The notes beneath the pieces were generated by a model. The model made no database searches. It was given only the letters and a program-made list of their open reading frames with translations, and was not told where the DNA came from. From a virus, in IMG/VR virus record IMGVR_UViG_3300008448_000585, positions 1 to 25,035 of that record: a DNA stretch of 25,035 nucleotides; one strand, written 5' to 3'. Positions 1-22,610 of the stretch are shown piece by piece. The position numbers and the translations under genes are program-made. The first letter of the stretch is position 1. The number at the start of each line of letters is the position of its first letter.

Positions 1-28
1 AGGCTCTAGTTTCGGCTAGGGCCTTTTT
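1..28 (+). terminator. Rho-independent terminator, plus-strand orientation
   Basis: On the plus strand a 9-bp stem (AGGCTCTAG pairing with CTAGGGCCT, one G-U pair) with a six-base loop is followed at once by TTTTT and then ATTT. This is a good intrinsic terminator for transcription moving left to right. Read on the minus strand the stem has a C-A mismatch, and any following T run would lie outside the window, so I cannot tell whether it also ends the lysis transcript. The stop codon of the Rz1-like gene (16-18) lies inside the stem. Confidence 0.65.
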
Positions 29-342
29 ATTTCCCACCACCGCTTAGGCTTCTGCGCCTCATTAGCCGCTTCAATAATCGACACAAGCGCCTCTCTGCGC
101 GCGTCACATGCCTGTAGATCGGCTTCCTGCTGGATTGAGTATGTCGCAAGCCTTCCAACCGTTAGGCCATCCACGGGCGGTCTCTCAGTCTTGTGGCAGG
201 TCTTTAGGCTTTCCGGCACCGTTATCTTGAGCGTTGGTTGAGTGTGAGCGCAGGCCGTCATGACCAGCAGCCCAAGCATTGGCAACGTCAGGCGGCACAA
301 GTGCTTCACCTGAAGGGAGAGCCTCGATTTGCTTTTCGACAT
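16..342 (-). CDS. Rz1-like outer-membrane spanin lipoprotein
   Basis: This is a 108-residue putative o-spanin, the outer-membrane partner that works with the Rz-like i-spanin to disrupt the outer membrane at lysis. The N-terminus is basic, followed by a hydrophobic stretch ending LLVMTAC, with Cys31 as the likely lipidated residue (a slightly unusual lipobox, with Met at -3). The rest is short and hydrophilic and ends in a basic WWEIKRP tail. I chose the ATG at 342 because GAGG lies 7 bases upstream; an in-frame ATG at 354 has no such site. The start lies inside the Rz-like gene in another frame (158 bases of overlap), the classic Rz/Rz1 arrangement. Rz1 proteins diverge quickly, so the call rests on the lipobox, size, overlap and position. 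Confidence 0.72.
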   Translation of the reverse strand: MSKSKSRLSLQVKHLCRLTLPMLGLLVMTACAHTQPTLKITVPESLKTCHKTERPPVDGLTVGRLATYSIQQEADLQACDARREALVSIIEAANEAQKPKRWWEIKRP

Positions 343-547
343 AATGAACCTCATTCGTGATACGGCGCTCAGTCAGCGTCACCCGATCCACCGCCTGCAC
401 CGTGGCTTCACTCACGACAGATTGAGCCTTGGCAATCTCAGCCGCTTTTTTGGCCTTGCGTTCTTCGGTTTGCAGGTGAACGATATAAAACGCCACTGCA
501 AACATGGATGCAAGCAGGCCACCGATTAGGTAGAGGCGGAAGGTCAT
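185..547 (-). CDS. Rz-like inner-membrane spanin
   Basis: A 120-residue putative i-spanin. Residues about 4-24 form one N-terminal transmembrane helix (LYLIGGLLASMFAVAFYIV). A charged, probably coiled-coil periplasmic region follows, rich in Glu, Lys and Ala, to about residue 75, and the C-terminal tail is looser. Type II membrane topology with a periplasmic coiled coil is the normal Rz design. An in-frame ATG at 580 would give 131 residues, but ATG 547 has AAGGA 7 bases upstream, while ATG 580 lies in the loop of a hairpin and has no ribosome site. The 3' part overlaps the Rz1-like gene in a different frame. In lysis the protein should bridge to the lipoprotein after the murein is degraded. 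Confidence 0.75.
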   Translation of the reverse strand: MTFRLYLIGGLLASMFAVAFYIVHLQTEERKAKKAAEIAKAQSVVSEATVQAVDRVTLTERRITNEVHYVEKQIEALPSGEALVPPDVANAWAAGHDGLRSHSTNAQDNGAGKPKDLPQD

Positions 548-559
548 GGAATAATCCTT

Positions 560-592
560 AAAATGCCAAGGCCACCACATAGCAGCCTTGGC
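560..592 (-). terminator. Hairpin with short T run between gp66-like gene and Rz
   Basis: The minus strand carries GCCAAGGC, a 12-base loop and GCCTTGGC (an 8-bp perfect stem, 565-592), then ATTTT. It lies between the stop of the gp66/gp49-like gene (603) and the Rz start (547). It could be a weak intrinsic terminator or a structure limiting Rz translation; the T run is short, so termination would be partial. Confidence 0.4.
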
Positions 593-16330: not shown

Positions 16331-16359
16331 GGAAAAGCCCGGCACTTAAGCACCGGGCT
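16331..16359 (-). terminator. Rho-independent terminator after the major capsid gene
   Basis: The minus strand has AGCCCGG, TGC, loop TTAA, then GTG and CCGGGCT: a 10-bp stem with two G-U pairs, followed by TTTT and a pyrimidine stretch. It starts six bases past the capsid stop codon and lies before the next ribosome site. The T run is short, so partial termination is likely, which would favour capsid protein over downstream genes. Confidence 0.65.
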
Positions 16360-16364
16360 CAAAA

Positions 16365-18267: not shown

Positions 18268-20106
18268 TTACACCGTGGCCATAGGTGAAGCGCCCGTTAA
18301 TCCCGGCGGCGGATTAAAAGAGTTCATCGCCATTGCAGCATTGAACCCTAATTCTTGTTGGATTTGCGCGGTCTGTGCCTTCTTGTATTCGGCCTCCGCC
18401 GTCACCTTTTCAGCTTCAGCAGAGCCCTTTTGTTGTTCTGCTTGCTGTTCAGGATTAGGTTGGCCTTTAGCACTCTCCAACGCTTCCAATAATTCGCGTT
18501 TGTTTGGTAGGCTTGAAGCCCGAATAATCAACTCAGGCGGAATTGGCAGGCCATTAGCCGCCATCTGTGCCAAAGCCTCGAACTGCACCTCTTGCAACGT
18601 CGTGGTATCAGGCTGCGCGTCAACGATGATGTCCATATCCATCTCAGCCAAGCGGTTATTATAACCCGTGACCTGTGGTGTCATAATCGTCATGGGAACG
18701 CCAAACGGTCCCATTTGCTGTTGTGGCACCATTTCCACAATCGGCTCGTTAATCTGCAACATCTGGACGGTTTTAAGATCATCCGTAATGCGGATCATCT
18801 TAGGATCAGTGTAAAACTGACGAGCCCTCGCCCACATTGCTCGATAGCAACGCAAAGTAAAATCAGACAAGCGCACAAAGACTGGGCTCAATTCCTGCAT
18901 GCCAGCCTGTTGACGCTGACGAATGGCAATCCCAGACTGATTAGCGTCTTGCCTACCCAATACCGCAGGCGCAGGCGTCAAGCGGTCGATGTGCTGCTTG
19001 GCATCCTGAAGCAATTGACTTTGAAATGACGCCATGTCCGTCGCAGGCACGGGCTGATAGCCAACAGGGATAATCCCATCAGGTCTAGCAGCCTCTCGCC
19101 TTGCCGTCTCAGCATCCACATCTGGAATGATATTCGGATCGGGAACCGCCATAAGCTGACGATTAGACGCATGCTGCAATAGCTTTTGACGCCGCTTGTT
19201 AGCCTCTTTCTGGACTGGAATCATGGTCTGGACAGGGCCATACCTGTTATTATCCACATCCAAATAGATTGAGAACGCAACCACACCACACGCTGGACGG
19301 CCACGAGCATCAACCAACGGACTGGGGCCATGTTCCAGCATGCAATCGCGCGTGAACAACGACCGCATCCATGTGCCGCGCTCACGATGGTATAATTCAA
19401 CCACCGCAACACGCCCGCCCGTCTTGCCCTTGTCAGCCCATTGAAAGCGGGGCTTGTCATCCATTGCAGGATCCATCGCAACAGATTGATCTTGCCGACC
19501 TCGTAACTTTTCTTCCTTGTCTGGAAACATGCCCACAAGGTCTTCAATCCATGCCCACCGGTGGCGGCCTAGATACCTAGCGTCTGAGAAATCATATTCA
19601 CGGCTTGCAGCGTCCCAAATGAACTCTTCATTCTTGATACGTTCACAGCCAATATCTTCGCTGTCTTCATCCCACCCAATGATGACCGCGCCTGCATGGC
19701 CAATCACGGCATCTTCAAGGCAATCACCGCGCATCACACTGTCAAAACGGTTTATGTCGCTGACGTAGCGCAGAACCTTAGTGGCAATCTCTGCCGCCTG
19801 TTCATCATCCACATTGCGAGGCAAAGCGCGCGGATCTACCTGCATGTTACGAGCAACACCCGTAATCGAGTTAATGGCAGGCTGGATATAATTCAGAACC
19901 ACATCCGGCAACCGAAGGCGCTTGAACGCTTCCAACTCTTGCGGCGTATATTGTTGCCCGTCATAGAACTGGCGACCAAGCACAGACCAGTCACGGCTTT
20001 TAATCGTGTCAGACACGCTATCTTCGACCAGACCCACCACACGCATAAGCTGAGGGCCGTAATCGACCTCTTGCGTGGCTTCTGGTTGATTTAAACTGTC
20101 ATCCAC
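18268..20106 (-). CDS. P22-type portal protein
   Basis: A 612-residue portal protein. The N-terminal half has the order seen in P22-type portals: RDWSVLGRQFYDGQQYTPQE, LPDVVLNYIQPAINSITGV, then a block with D-C-L-E-D-A-V-I-G-H-A-G, a domain with FIWDAASREYDFSDARYLGR, and a long central helical part (VPVQKEANKRRQKLLQHASN) corresponding to the tunnel and clip. The C-terminal tail (from about 540) is Gln/Glu/Ala-rich and helical, like the P22 barrel but shorter (P22 gp1 is 725). The start is GTG at 20106, with GGAGG 7 bases upstream, overlapping the terminase stop by 16 bases. It forms the dodecameric vertex ring used in DNA packaging and tail attachment. Confidence 0.85.
   Translation of the reverse strand: MDDSLNQPEATQEVDYGPQLMRVVGLVEDSVSDTIKSRDWSVLGRQFYDGQQYTPQELEAFKRLRLPDVVLNYIQPAINSITGVARNMQVDPRALPRNVDDEQAAEIATKVLRYVSDINRFDSVMRGDCLEDAVIGHAGAVIIGWDEDSEDIGCERIKNEEFIWDAASREYDFSDARYLGRHRWAWIEDLVGMFPDKEEKLRGRQDQSVAMDPAMDDKPRFQWADKGKTGGRVAVVELYHRERGTWMRSLFTRDCMLEHGPSPLVDARGRPACGVVAFSIYLDVDNNRYGPVQTMIPVQKEANKRRQKLLQHASNRQLMAVPDPNIIPDVDAETARREAARPDGIIPVGYQPVPATDMASFQSQLLQDAKQHIDRLTPAPAVLGRQDANQSGIAIRQRQQAGMQELSPVFVRLSDFTLRCYRAMWARARQFYTDPKMIRITDDLKTVQMLQINEPIVEMVPQQQMGPFGVPMTIMTPQVTGYNNRLAEMDMDIIVDAQPDTTTLQEVQFEALAQMAANGLPIPPELIIRASSLPNKRELLEALESAKGQPNPEQQAEQQKGSAEAEKVTAEAEYKKAQTAQIQQELGFNAAMAMNSFNPPPGLTGASPMATV
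18286..18312. repeat. Degenerate direct repeat, copy inside the portal 3' end
   Basis: On the minus strand, CCGCCGCCGGG, ATTAA, CGGGCGCTTCA, coding P-P-P-G-L-T-G-A-S of the portal C-terminus. The copy at 18231-18256 lies 55-56 bases downstream and would be read in another frame. Confidence 0.5.
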
Positions 20107-21350
20107 GAATTATCCTCCGAAGCCCGCTTTAGGCCGTAGTCTCGAACCTTGGGCTTGTTGGTATCTTCATCTTTAGGCTTTGCAGCCCGACGAACCGCCT
20201 CACACGCATACCGCAGCGCATCAATGCAGTTGTTGTATTTGTCCTCTAGGATCGGCAAAACTTCCTCGGTTGCAGGATCAACCTTGTAAGAGTAGTTTTC
20301 CAACTCCCGACGCAAAAGCACATCACACCGTGGATGCACCACAATGTCATAAGCCTTCAAAAACCTCACGCCCTCTTCAATTGAGCCCGGCCCTTTAACC
20401 GCTGACACCATCTTAAAGCCAGAGCGCCGCATGTAGCTAATCGTCTCAGGCCTTGCACTATCCGCACAAATTGGCCAGCGCCTTGCATTTGGCACTTTGT
20501 CGAACATATCAGGCGTTGCATCAATCTCGACACCAACGCCAGCCTCGCAATAGTCAATCCGTATCTCACGACCGACAATATGCGCACGAATAAGCACCGT
20601 AGGATCGTTAGCAAAACCCCAGTCAGCCCCAAAGCGATGCACCGCATTGTGTGGCGTCTCAAACTCTTCCACACGCCAGTTACGAAACACCGTTGCTTGT
20701 GACTGGCTTAAATACTTGCCATCCCAAACGTGCGCGGCCATGTCAGGATCACGTTGTCTGTCCCGATCCATGTCCTCTTTCAAGGCCTCTGGAAACCAAG
20801 GGTTATCCAACCAGTTAACCGACACAACCACCGCATCAGATGGCGGCGCAGAGCCACGCAACAACGCATCAACAGGGTCATCAGCCTTGGCAGGGTTCCA
20901 TGAGAACCAAATCTCGCTTCCAGGCTTACGAATGGTTGGCGTCAATGTCCGTAGTGACTTAGCCGAAAGGCTTTGCGCCTCTTCCACCCAAGCAATGTCA
21001 AAACCCTCAAACGACTTGAAACTATCAGCCGTGTGGTTCTGCATGCCAGCAAACACAATGCGCGAACCGTTGCGGCCCCGTATCTCAGTGTCGGTCGATG
21101 ACGCAAAGAACGCCTGCAGCCCCAGCTTGACAATCTTGTCGTGCAAAAGCTGCTTAACCGAATCCTTCAGGCTCTTTTGAATCTCACGAACGCAGACCGC
21201 GCGCGTCTCACCCATCAAGCACCGTTCAATCAACAACTCAGCAAAGAAATGCGACTTACCCGAACCCCGACCACCGTATGCACCCTTGTAGCGTGCTGCC
21301 CTGAGCAAAGGCTTTGCCCAGCGCGGTGTGTCAATCGTTAGGATCGACAA
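20091..21350 (-). CDS. Terminase large subunit
   Basis: About 419-423 residues with all motor and nuclease landmarks of a PBSX-type (Terminase_3) large terminase. Numbering from TTG 21362: Walker A GGRGSGKS (30-37), Walker B IAWVEEAQ with Glu127/Glu128, coupling motif region WFSWNP (152-157), and nuclease aspartates D247 (FGADWGF), D301 (CADSARP) and D381 (NNCIDALRYA). No ATG is available. I prefer TTG 21350, giving MSILTIDTPRWAK, because AGAGG precedes it and the length fits the family; TTG 21362 is the alternative. The start lies within the small terminase gene and the end overlaps the portal start. It cuts the concatemer and drives DNA into the prohead with ATP. Confidence 0.9.
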   Translation of the reverse strand: MSILTIDTPRWAKPLLRAARYKGAYGGRGSGKSHFFAELLIERCLMGETRAVCVREIQKSLKDSVKQLLHDKIVKLGLQAFFASSTDTEIRGRNGSRIVFAGMQNHTADSFKSFEGFDIAWVEEAQSLSAKSLRTLTPTIRKPGSEIWFSWNPAKADDPVDALLRGSAPPSDAVVVSVNWLDNPWFPEALKEDMDRDRQRDPDMAAHVWDGKYLSQSQATVFRNWRVEEFETPHNAVHRFGADWGFANDPTVLIRAHIVGREIRIDYCEAGVGVEIDATPDMFDKVPNARRWPICADSARPETISYMRRSGFKMVSAVKGPGSIEEGVRFLKAYDIVVHPRCDVLLRRELENYSYKVDPATEEVLPILEDKYNNCIDALRYACEAVRRAAKPKDEDTNKPKVRDYGLKRASEDNSWMTV

Positions 21351-21732
21351 TTCGCCTCTCAATCATTTGAAACTGCATTGGTCCGCCATCAGCGCCTACG
21401 TTCTCGTTGACGACACGTTCGCCAAACCGCTTAGGAAGCAGACGGGACAAAATCCATTTGCGAGAATCAATCTGGACGCGAGCCTTTGCTGCATCGTCGC
21501 AACTATCCGCAATCATCAAAATCTCATTAGCGTGATGTGACAAAAGCCCGTCGCGCGCGCGTGTGTATTGCTTTGACCATTCGCCAGTTTCATCAGCGTC
21601 GATCCATCGCAAGACGGTAGCTTCTGATATTCCTTCATCTCTGCAAGCATGGCGAAGGCTCTTTCCACCTTCCATCGCAACGAACACAGCCCAAACGATA
21701 TTGTTCTTATCGTCTTGAGTGTATGCTGGCAT
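21331..21732 (-). CDS. Terminase small subunit
   Basis: A 133-residue protein: an N-terminal helical DNA-binding region with a helix-turn-helix (SLRHACRDEGISEATVLRWI), a Trp/Lys-rich linker (ADETGEWSKQYTRARD), and C-terminal helices (IDSRKWILSRLLPKRFGERV) for oligomerisation. This layout fits Sf6 gp1-like small terminases, which recognise the packaging site and feed DNA to the large subunit. An in-frame GTG further up (21789) would run through the terminator hairpin, so I take ATG 21732. Its own ribosome site is weak (GGTG). The stop overlaps the large-subunit start. The terminator ending only 9 bases before this ATG implies that expression depends on readthrough or antitermination. Confidence 0.82.
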   Translation of the reverse strand: MPAYTQDDKNNIVWAVFVAMEGGKSLRHACRDEGISEATVLRWIDADETGEWSKQYTRARDGLLSHHANEILMIADSCDDAAKARVQIDSRKWILSRLLPKRFGERVVNENVGADGGPMQFQMIERRIVDPND

Positions 21733-21740
21733 ATTACACC

Positions 21741-21767
21741 AAAAGAAAAGGCCCGCCGCAGCGAGCC
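21741..21767 (-). terminator. Rho-independent terminator just before the small terminase gene
   Basis: Minus strand: GGCTCGC, tetraloop TGCG, GCGGGCC (7-bp GC-rich stem, one G-U), then TTTTCTTTT. A strong intrinsic terminator pointing into the structural operon, ending about 9 bases before the terS ATG. A pyrimidine-rich stretch (TTCCTCCTTTCCCC) lies just upstream of the stem. Confidence 0.75.
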
Positions 21768-21825
21768 AGTTGGGGAAAGGAGGAACCACAAAATGACCAT
21801 CACACGCAAAGCGAGATGATAAGCC

Positions 21826-21854
21826 TTTATGCCGCTGATTTGTTCCGAGGTCAA
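21826..21854 (-). promoter_or_regulatory. Candidate sigma70-like late promoter
   Basis: Minus strand: TTGACC (21854-21849, 5 of 6 to the -35 consensus), 17-base spacer, CATAAA (21831-21826, 4 of 6 to the -10 consensus). Transcription would start near 21819 and meet the terminator after about 50 bases. The -35 overlaps the stop codon of the 34-residue gene. Confidence 0.5.
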
Positions 21855-21955
21855 TATGCCATAAACAAAATTATAATCAGCACCCAAAACGCCGTTGAGA
21901 AGCCAGCACCAATCAGAAATCCGTGAGCATGTGATAGGTTGTCGTCTTCTTTCAT
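21851..21955 (-). CDS. 34-residue single-helix membrane protein
   Basis: A 34-codon frame starting ATG 21955, overlapping the upstream stop by 4 bases (ATGA). It has a short charged N-terminus (MKEDDNLSHAHG) and one transmembrane helix (FLIGAGFSTAFWVLIIILFM) running to the C-terminus. No family can be assigned at this length. The 4-base coupling shared by every gene of this operon and the clean membrane helix argue for a real gene. It is the last gene before the late control region, and its stop codon overlaps the candidate promoter. It could act at the membrane in superinfection or lysis timing, but there is no direct evidence. Confidence 0.55.
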   Translation of the reverse strand: MKEDDNLSHAHGFLIGAGFSTAFWVLIIILFMAY

Positions 21956-22128
21956 GCCGTCATCCTCAATGCGTCTCGCACAGCGGCTTCATACTGTGTT
22001 TTGGTTAGGTTCCAATCGTGAAGCCAAACCGGATCGGGGCTTGTAAGCTGGTTGCGTAGCCAAGTTGGGGTTTGCTCGATTAGCACCGACAATAGCGCGG
22101 CCTTGTGGTTATATTCTTGAAGGGTCAT
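21952..22128 (-). CDS. 58-residue hypothetical protein
   Basis: A 58-codon frame starting ATG 22128 (4-base overlap with the upstream stop) and ending in a 4-base overlap with the next gene. It is soluble, Trp- and Leu-rich (TLQEYNHKAALLSVLIEQTP, then DPVWLHDWNLTKTQYEAAV), and looks like two or three short helices. No family recognised. Tight coupling on both sides is the main support. A small partner or modulator of the upstream 161-residue protein is conceivable. Confidence 0.6.
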   Translation of the reverse strand: MTLQEYNHKAALLSVLIEQTPTWLRNQLTSPDPVWLHDWNLTKTQYEAAVRDALRMTA

Positions 22129-22610
22129 AACCGCGCCCTTGCCATGCGACCAAGTAAATCAATTAACGTTTCATGTGCCGCAACGTATTTACGCCCGCTT
22201 GCCATTGATCTAATCGAATGGCCCTGGCCTACAACATGCCGTAAAAGCCCTAGTTCTCCCGCTGACGTGCAAAACTTCTCAGCCCTTGCAACCACCCTAC
22301 CAGAGTCAATAACCGCCTGTAACGCCGTATCTCTGTCACCAGGAGGCGTATCGTTTAGCGCGTTGCGACCCCGAAGACCCGCGCAAGCCTCATAGGCCCG
22401 CTGATATGCCAAACCCACCCTGTGCATGTCATCAGTTAACTCGCCAGCCTTGTGAAGTAAGCCCAACCCATCCAACGCCCGAACCTGACGAAACTCACCC
22501 CGCCGTTCAGAAGCCTTCTCGTCAGCCTCACGAAGCGCAGCGCGTTTAGATGCTGCCATTTCTTTAGCGCGTTCTGCTTGTGCTGTGGTGGTTATGTGGA
22601 CGTAACTCAT
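22125..22610 (-). CDS. 161-residue helical protein, possible late regulator
   Basis: A 161-residue basic, almost wholly helical protein. The N-terminal 45 residues are highly charged (RAKEMAASKRAALREADEKA). The C-terminal 60 residues (GELGLLRHVVGQGHSIRSMA, then a helix ending LLGRMARARL) recall the helix-turn-helix-like DUF6456 domain, where a short G-x-G-x-S-x-R element precedes a final helix. The middle (LLHKAGELTDDMHRVGLAYQ, RAYEACAGL) also fits that family. I cannot confirm a match. It is joined to the primase by an ATGA overlap and lies near the end of the early operon, where antiterminator genes sit in lambdoid phages. A DNA- or RNA-polymerase-binding regulator of late genes is my inference. 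Confidence 0.5.
   Translation of the reverse strand: MSYVHITTTAQAERAKEMAASKRAALREADEKASERRGEFRQVRALDGLGLLHKAGELTDDMHRVGLAYQRAYEACAGLRGRNALNDTPPGDRDTALQAVIDSGRVVARAEKFCTSAGELGLLRHVVGQGHSIRSMASGRKYVAAHETLIDLLGRMARARL

Follow-up and report, generated by a model that had tools for sequence, protein, structure and literature searches.

A conserved promoter-leader-terminator cassette at the head of a phage late operon, with a leader that resembles alphaR8 small RNAs

In a phage whose host is probably an alphaproteobacterium, a cassette of promoter-like sequence, leader, terminator and ribosome site lies in front of the terminase gene terS; its conservation is established by sequence comparison. We consider it an even call that this is a self-contained 5' cassette of the late operon, whose terminated, small RNA (sRNA)-like leader would become the 5'UTR of the late mRNA upon read-through. 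New here is that all leaders share a layout of the alphaR8 type and that the cassette is the best match to the Rfam family RF00519 (suhB/mmgR) in 12 of 12 contigs tested. If this reading is true, the late promoter, sRNA, terminator and ribosome site would travel as a unit behind which packaging genes are exchanged, offering a simple, testable model of late-gene control outside the lambdoid phages; it would also suggest that alphaproteobacterial phages use or mimic alphaR8 sRNAs.

The window, i.e. the whole stretch of DNA analysed, is an IMG/VR virus record 25,035 bases long, and the minus strand carries nearly all of its genes. Along that strand, genes for a helicase, a primase and a 161-aa protein and two small ORFs are followed by terS (Sf6-like), terL, a P22-like portal gene and the capsid gene; the cassette sits between the two small ORFs and terS. 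At the operon end, an overlapping pair of ORFs in different frames (16-580, minus strand) resembles a spanin (Rz/Rz1-type) pair. As to the host, a related contig of 37,723 bases (L292/L293), apparently a complete genome to judge from the identical 127 bases at its two ends, encodes RecT, a protein with a DnaA C-terminal domain and a homologue of GcrA, a regulator typical of alphaproteobacteria, and it is because of the latter that an alphaproteobacterial host is probable. The features referred to below, all on the minus strand, are:

22125-22610, minus strand: gene of the 161-aa protein, helix-rich, a candidate late regulator by its co-occurrence with the cassette
21851-21955, minus strand: 34-aa ORF that has a single membrane-like stretch and whose stop codon overlaps the predicted -35 hexamer
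21826-21854, minus strand: predicted sigma70-like promoter, TTGACC (21854-21849), 17-nt spacer, CATAAA (21831-21826)
21840-21846, minus strand: GGAACAA motif in the -35/-10 spacer, a candidate operator
21741-21820, minus strand: predicted terminated leader RNA of about 80 nt, sRNA-like by its common fold and RF00519 match
21796-21820, minus strand: weak 5' hairpin of the leader, from RNA folding (single-sequence z only -0.1 to -2.1)
21774-21785, minus strand: single-stranded UUCCUCCUUUCC core, anti-Shine-Dalgarno-like (unpaired probability 0.95)
21750-21767, minus strand: intrinsic terminator hairpin GGCTCGC-TGCG-GCGGGCC, from sequence, folding, simulation and conservation
21741-21749, minus strand: T-tract TTTTCTTTT
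21730-21740, minus strand: ribosome-site-like GGTG (21740-21737) and the terS ATG (21732-21730)
21331-21732, minus strand: terS (Sf6_terminase PF20901, E 8e-23)
20091-21362, minus strand: terL (Terminase_3)

The promoter, the leader and the hairpin with T-tract that the initial annotation had placed before terS are all present where it located them. Its sigma70-like hexamer pair was likewise recovered and is conserved in one class of relatives, yet by sequence this promoter is weak: it matches 9 of 12 bases and is without the T at position 6 of the -10 element, which is why a standard promoter scan does not list it. Sites of that quality number 19 on the minus strand against 17.5 expected, with a local expectation of 0.09 per 120 nt. 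The terminator was rightly called strong. With a hairpin energy of about -11.5 to -13 kcal/mol, the hairpin and T-tract (21741-21767) form the only strong terminator of the minus strand (at most -11 kcal, at least 7 T of 9), where 0.25 were expected from simulated sequence. It does end close to the terS ATG, as described, the T-tract stopping 8 nt before it rather than about 9; as counted across contigs, the ATG follows the T-tract by 7 nt, with GGTG in between, in 12 of 13.

Twelve other IMG/VR contigs carry the same cassette, giving ten distinct leaders in all, although these relatives are few and closely related and hence do not represent independent events; IMGVR_UViG_3300042691_023293, excluded from the count, shares 99.98% identity with the window. 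They were found in three ways, namely via terL, with the spacer motif as query and with hairpin plus T-tract as query. Each of these two queries was thus a bait, and contigs caught by a given bait show that motif as invariant; the conservation of each motif was judged only on contigs found via the other bait or via terL. On average, two contigs are 82% identical within the element, as against 62% over the 210 nt that precede it and 66% over the 200 nt that follow. In L006-L008, found via terL (92-93% protein identity), the element is kept while the terS family and the small upstream ORFs differ, and the region of the 34-aa ORF shows no conservation among the relatives. The genes 3' of the cassette encode Sf6_terminase, Terminase_2 or, once, a methylase; the last is a ParB-N/N6-N4 methylase gene that stands in the place of terS (L178:1943-3160). 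At the level of sequence, the cassette is an island conserved between unrelated flanks, and it is this conservation in relatives, not any single-sequence score, that lifts it above chance.

A block with exchanged neighbours might also be a recombination boundary or a packaging (pac/cos) site, kept for module exchange or terminase binding. The flanking genes are indeed swapped on both sides, and terS adjoins the block, as at many pac/cos sites, which often lie by this gene. Against this, the block stays unchanged in front of two unrelated terS families and a methylase gene, and its RNA features (fold, T-tract and fixed ATG spacing) are unneeded by such sites, so that we regard this explanation as very improbable.

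Individual motifs differ in how they are conserved. Class I relatives keep the TTG...CATAA pair, whereas in class II relatives (L175, L176 and L178) TTTACA is found and the -10 region differs. GGAAC occurs in 13 of 13 contigs, in both promoter classes and at a fixed 28 nt before the leader's CATCT, only L006-L008 and L175/L176/L178 having been found without this motif as bait. The motif might act as an operator inside the promoter. Reading GGAAC as the -35 element of an EcfG-type promoter was rejected, as were LexA and IHF sites, since in each case the second element is unconserved (judged by eye). Further downstream, the T-tract is identical in 13 of 13 contigs, an identity that is non-circular for those found by terL or the promoter motif, and the terminator stem is kept despite an altered 5' arm (GGCTCGC or GGCCTGCC). 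The core reads TTTCCTCC/TTCCTCC in 12 of 13 cassettes, L157 having UUUCCUUCC in place of UUUCCUCC. Leaders differ between contigs by indels whose lengths are not multiples of three; because these break the frame, a coding reading of the leader is ruled out. A search with the relaxed motif GGAACAAANCNNNNGCATAA returned 55 further loci, with the cassette in none of them, and three hits of a leader-pattern search (L234-L236) were dismissed as unrelated chance matches.

How is transcription through such a terminator to be understood? The initial annotation held that a terminator this near to terS would have to be overridden. This argument is weakened by a second conserved terminator (16333-16360, minus strand) that separates the major capsid gene from the gene after it, is also found in L157, G005 and G012 and is tolerated in the same operon without an obvious switch; the mere presence of a terminator in this operon does not call for an antiterminator. 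The cassette could be a passive boundary, its terminator shielding the late genes from early transcription with constant partial read-through, its promoter weak or absent and its leader functionless. The tolerated post-capsid terminator and a promoter score that is ordinary for the window both fit this explanation. Yet not only the hairpin but the leader in full and a portion of the promoter are conserved, and a terminator that only marks a boundary could do without a promoter in front. We therefore judge a passive boundary improbable.

The opposite alternative is the switch suggested by the likeness to lambda pR'-tR', in which RNA polymerase would be modified by a protein of the phage (the 161-aa protein, acting on GGAACAA, is one possibility) such that the terminator is ignored and the late operon is turned on. 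The order of promoter, leader, terminator and late gene, on which this analogy was built, stands and is kept in front of different terS genes, and the conserved motif inside the promoter agrees with it. So does the gene of the 161-aa protein, which lies upstream in every cassette contig that extends that far; in lambdoid phages, Q genes are found just upstream of the late promoter region. The Q-type part of the analogy fared less well. In searches that covered the conserved upstream candidate only, no Q-family antiterminator was found just upstream of the cassette: the 161-aa protein matched neither the Q family nor any other in Pfam, PHROGs, NCBIfam or the PDB, and it had no match among phage records. 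Its structure model, helical and of low confidence (pLDDT 68), returned no fold match. In addition, terS is directly next here, where lambda has lysis genes. Antitermination of the Q type is unlikely on this balance, if less so than a passive boundary; the 161-aa protein could possibly be an unrelated antiterminator or late regulator.

What the initial annotation overlooked is the sRNA-like character of the leader. Although the stability of the whole leader is ordinary for a single sequence (z -1.05), a common fold was predicted for all ten distinct leaders, consisting of a weak 5' hairpin, an unpaired UUUCCUCC-type core (unpaired probability 0.83-1.0 across the ten) and the terminator hairpin. 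Long as well as short leaders occur, and their 5' arms vary; the 5' hairpin is nonetheless present in all classes, despite differences in sequence and length. The alphaR8 RNAs, Hfq-dependent sRNAs of alphaproteobacteria that include MmgR and SisA-D, have a published layout of a weak hairpin, a single-stranded UUUCCUCCCU and a Rho-independent terminator (PMC12559287). All ten phage leaders have this layout, although the 10-mer UUUCCUCCCU is matched inexactly, 8-9 of its 10 positions agreeing. While an Rfam scan at the gathering threshold gave no match, a relaxed scan of the window ranked RF00519 top (17.3 bits; E 0.18 with all families counted). Scores across the contigs tested ranged from 17.3 bits in the window to 28.8 in the best relative, below the curated cut-off (gathering score 41 bits). 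Among 41 related contigs serving as control, only one RF00519 match exceeded 14 bits (25.2 bits, a CUCUCCUUU variant without the exact core), and the core lay within 35 nt of a strong terminator in just 1 of 195 cases (145 control loci). In the reciprocal search, run on four alphaproteobacterial genomes, a model of the phage leaders did not retrieve the genuine alphaR8 genes; its structure is the terminator stem only, which makes the test a weak one. Given scores below 41 bits and this failed reciprocal search, membership in alphaR8 is not established; the phage leader resembles an alphaR8 RNA and may work like one. Pairing of the leader with the window's gene starts gave no specific target.

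Core and terminator also recur together elsewhere. When viral contigs were scanned for GTTTCCTCCC followed by CCTTTTTT, at least 80 loci were obtained, and among the matches listed 41 of 80 have a strong hairpin whose 3' end meets the T run, as opposed to 6 of 46 CCTTTTTT sites that lack the core at the same loci (again among the matches listed) and 4 of 51 at control loci. ACU, which was absent from the search pattern, stands at the stem foot in 31 of the 41 hairpin loci among the matches listed. The viral loci L301-L377 show a recurrent module of the form GTTTCCTCCC-N-ACT(T)GG-hairpin-T6. Some of the GTTTCCTCCC-hairpin loci are true alphaR8 genes, with at least six matches in at least five of the scanned contigs exceeding the RF00519 cut-off, and others lie directly behind the stop codon of capsid-like, polymerase-like or other ORFs (named by eye). 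Among named phages, blastn with the cassette matched terminators only: Roseobacter phage CRP-125 has TTTCCTTCCAACTGG and a similar hairpin 3' of its lysozyme gene, and CRP-114 and CRP-738 have shortened forms as intergenic terminators. Since the module or its shortened forms serve elsewhere as plain intergenic or 3' terminators, it may be a type of terminator rather than an sRNA. It is a tentative idea, possible rather than probable, that alphaproteobacterial phages carry alphaR8-like anti-Shine-Dalgarno sRNAs and that one of these has here been fused to a late promoter and terminator, such that the late switch would release a host-directed RNA.

Returning to the self-contained cassette, the weak promoter with its conserved spacer motif would initiate an RNA of about 80 nt, and most transcripts would end at the intrinsic terminator. 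We infer both that this promoter is active and that the short RNA accumulates; it is likely that one start yields a terminated short transcript as well as a late mRNA made by read-through. The short product, with its weak 5' hairpin, exposed UUUCCUCC-type core and U-tailed terminator, would have the alphaR8 layout. Read-through would join the leader to the coding part of the late mRNA, which begins with terS and goes on to the virion genes, the ribosome site lying immediately 3' of the T-tract; read-through might be controlled, possibly by the 161-aa protein. A trans-acting function is possible, in which the short RNA would bind Hfq and pair with mRNAs through its core. The known Caulobacter members of alphaR8 repress the mRNAs of TonB-dependent receptors (PMC12559287). 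This model of the cassette is weakened by the deviating core of L157, the weak promoter, the different promoter of class II and the fact that no target can be named.

With alphaR8 RNAs (MmgR, SisA-D; RF00519 suhB), the phage leader thus shares a weak 5' hairpin, a single-stranded UUUCCUCC(C)-type core and a Rho-independent terminator, as well as a length of about 75-85 nt and, in several members, ACU(U/C)GG at the stem foot. It differs in scoring below the Rfam gathering threshold, in not being linked by the reciprocal model, in being without the GCCC...GGGC hairpin and in its location, a late 5'UTR instead of the vicinity of an FGase gene. Lambda pR'-tR' with its 6S RNA and Q has in common a promoter, a short leader and an intrinsic terminator before the late genes, seen here by sequence and conservation only; the present leader is shorter and unrelated in sequence, no Q homologue was found, and the terminator abuts the terS ribosome site, whereas that of lambda precedes the lysis cassette. 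StxS of the Shiga-toxin phages originates as a terminated late-leader transcript. Like the RNA proposed here, StxS is a short, phage-derived regulatory RNA (74 nt; PMC12197685), yet it is enterobacterial, unrelated in sequence and accompanied by a known Q. IsrK of Gifsy-1 differs in sequence, order and target, and antQ lies upstream of isrK, but there, too, a single phage promoter yields both an sRNA, by termination, and an mRNA, by read-through (PMC4825925). Together with lambda 6S, a phage RNA reported to depend on Hfq (PMC12197685), IsrK illustrates that a dual role as leader and sRNA is known in principle.
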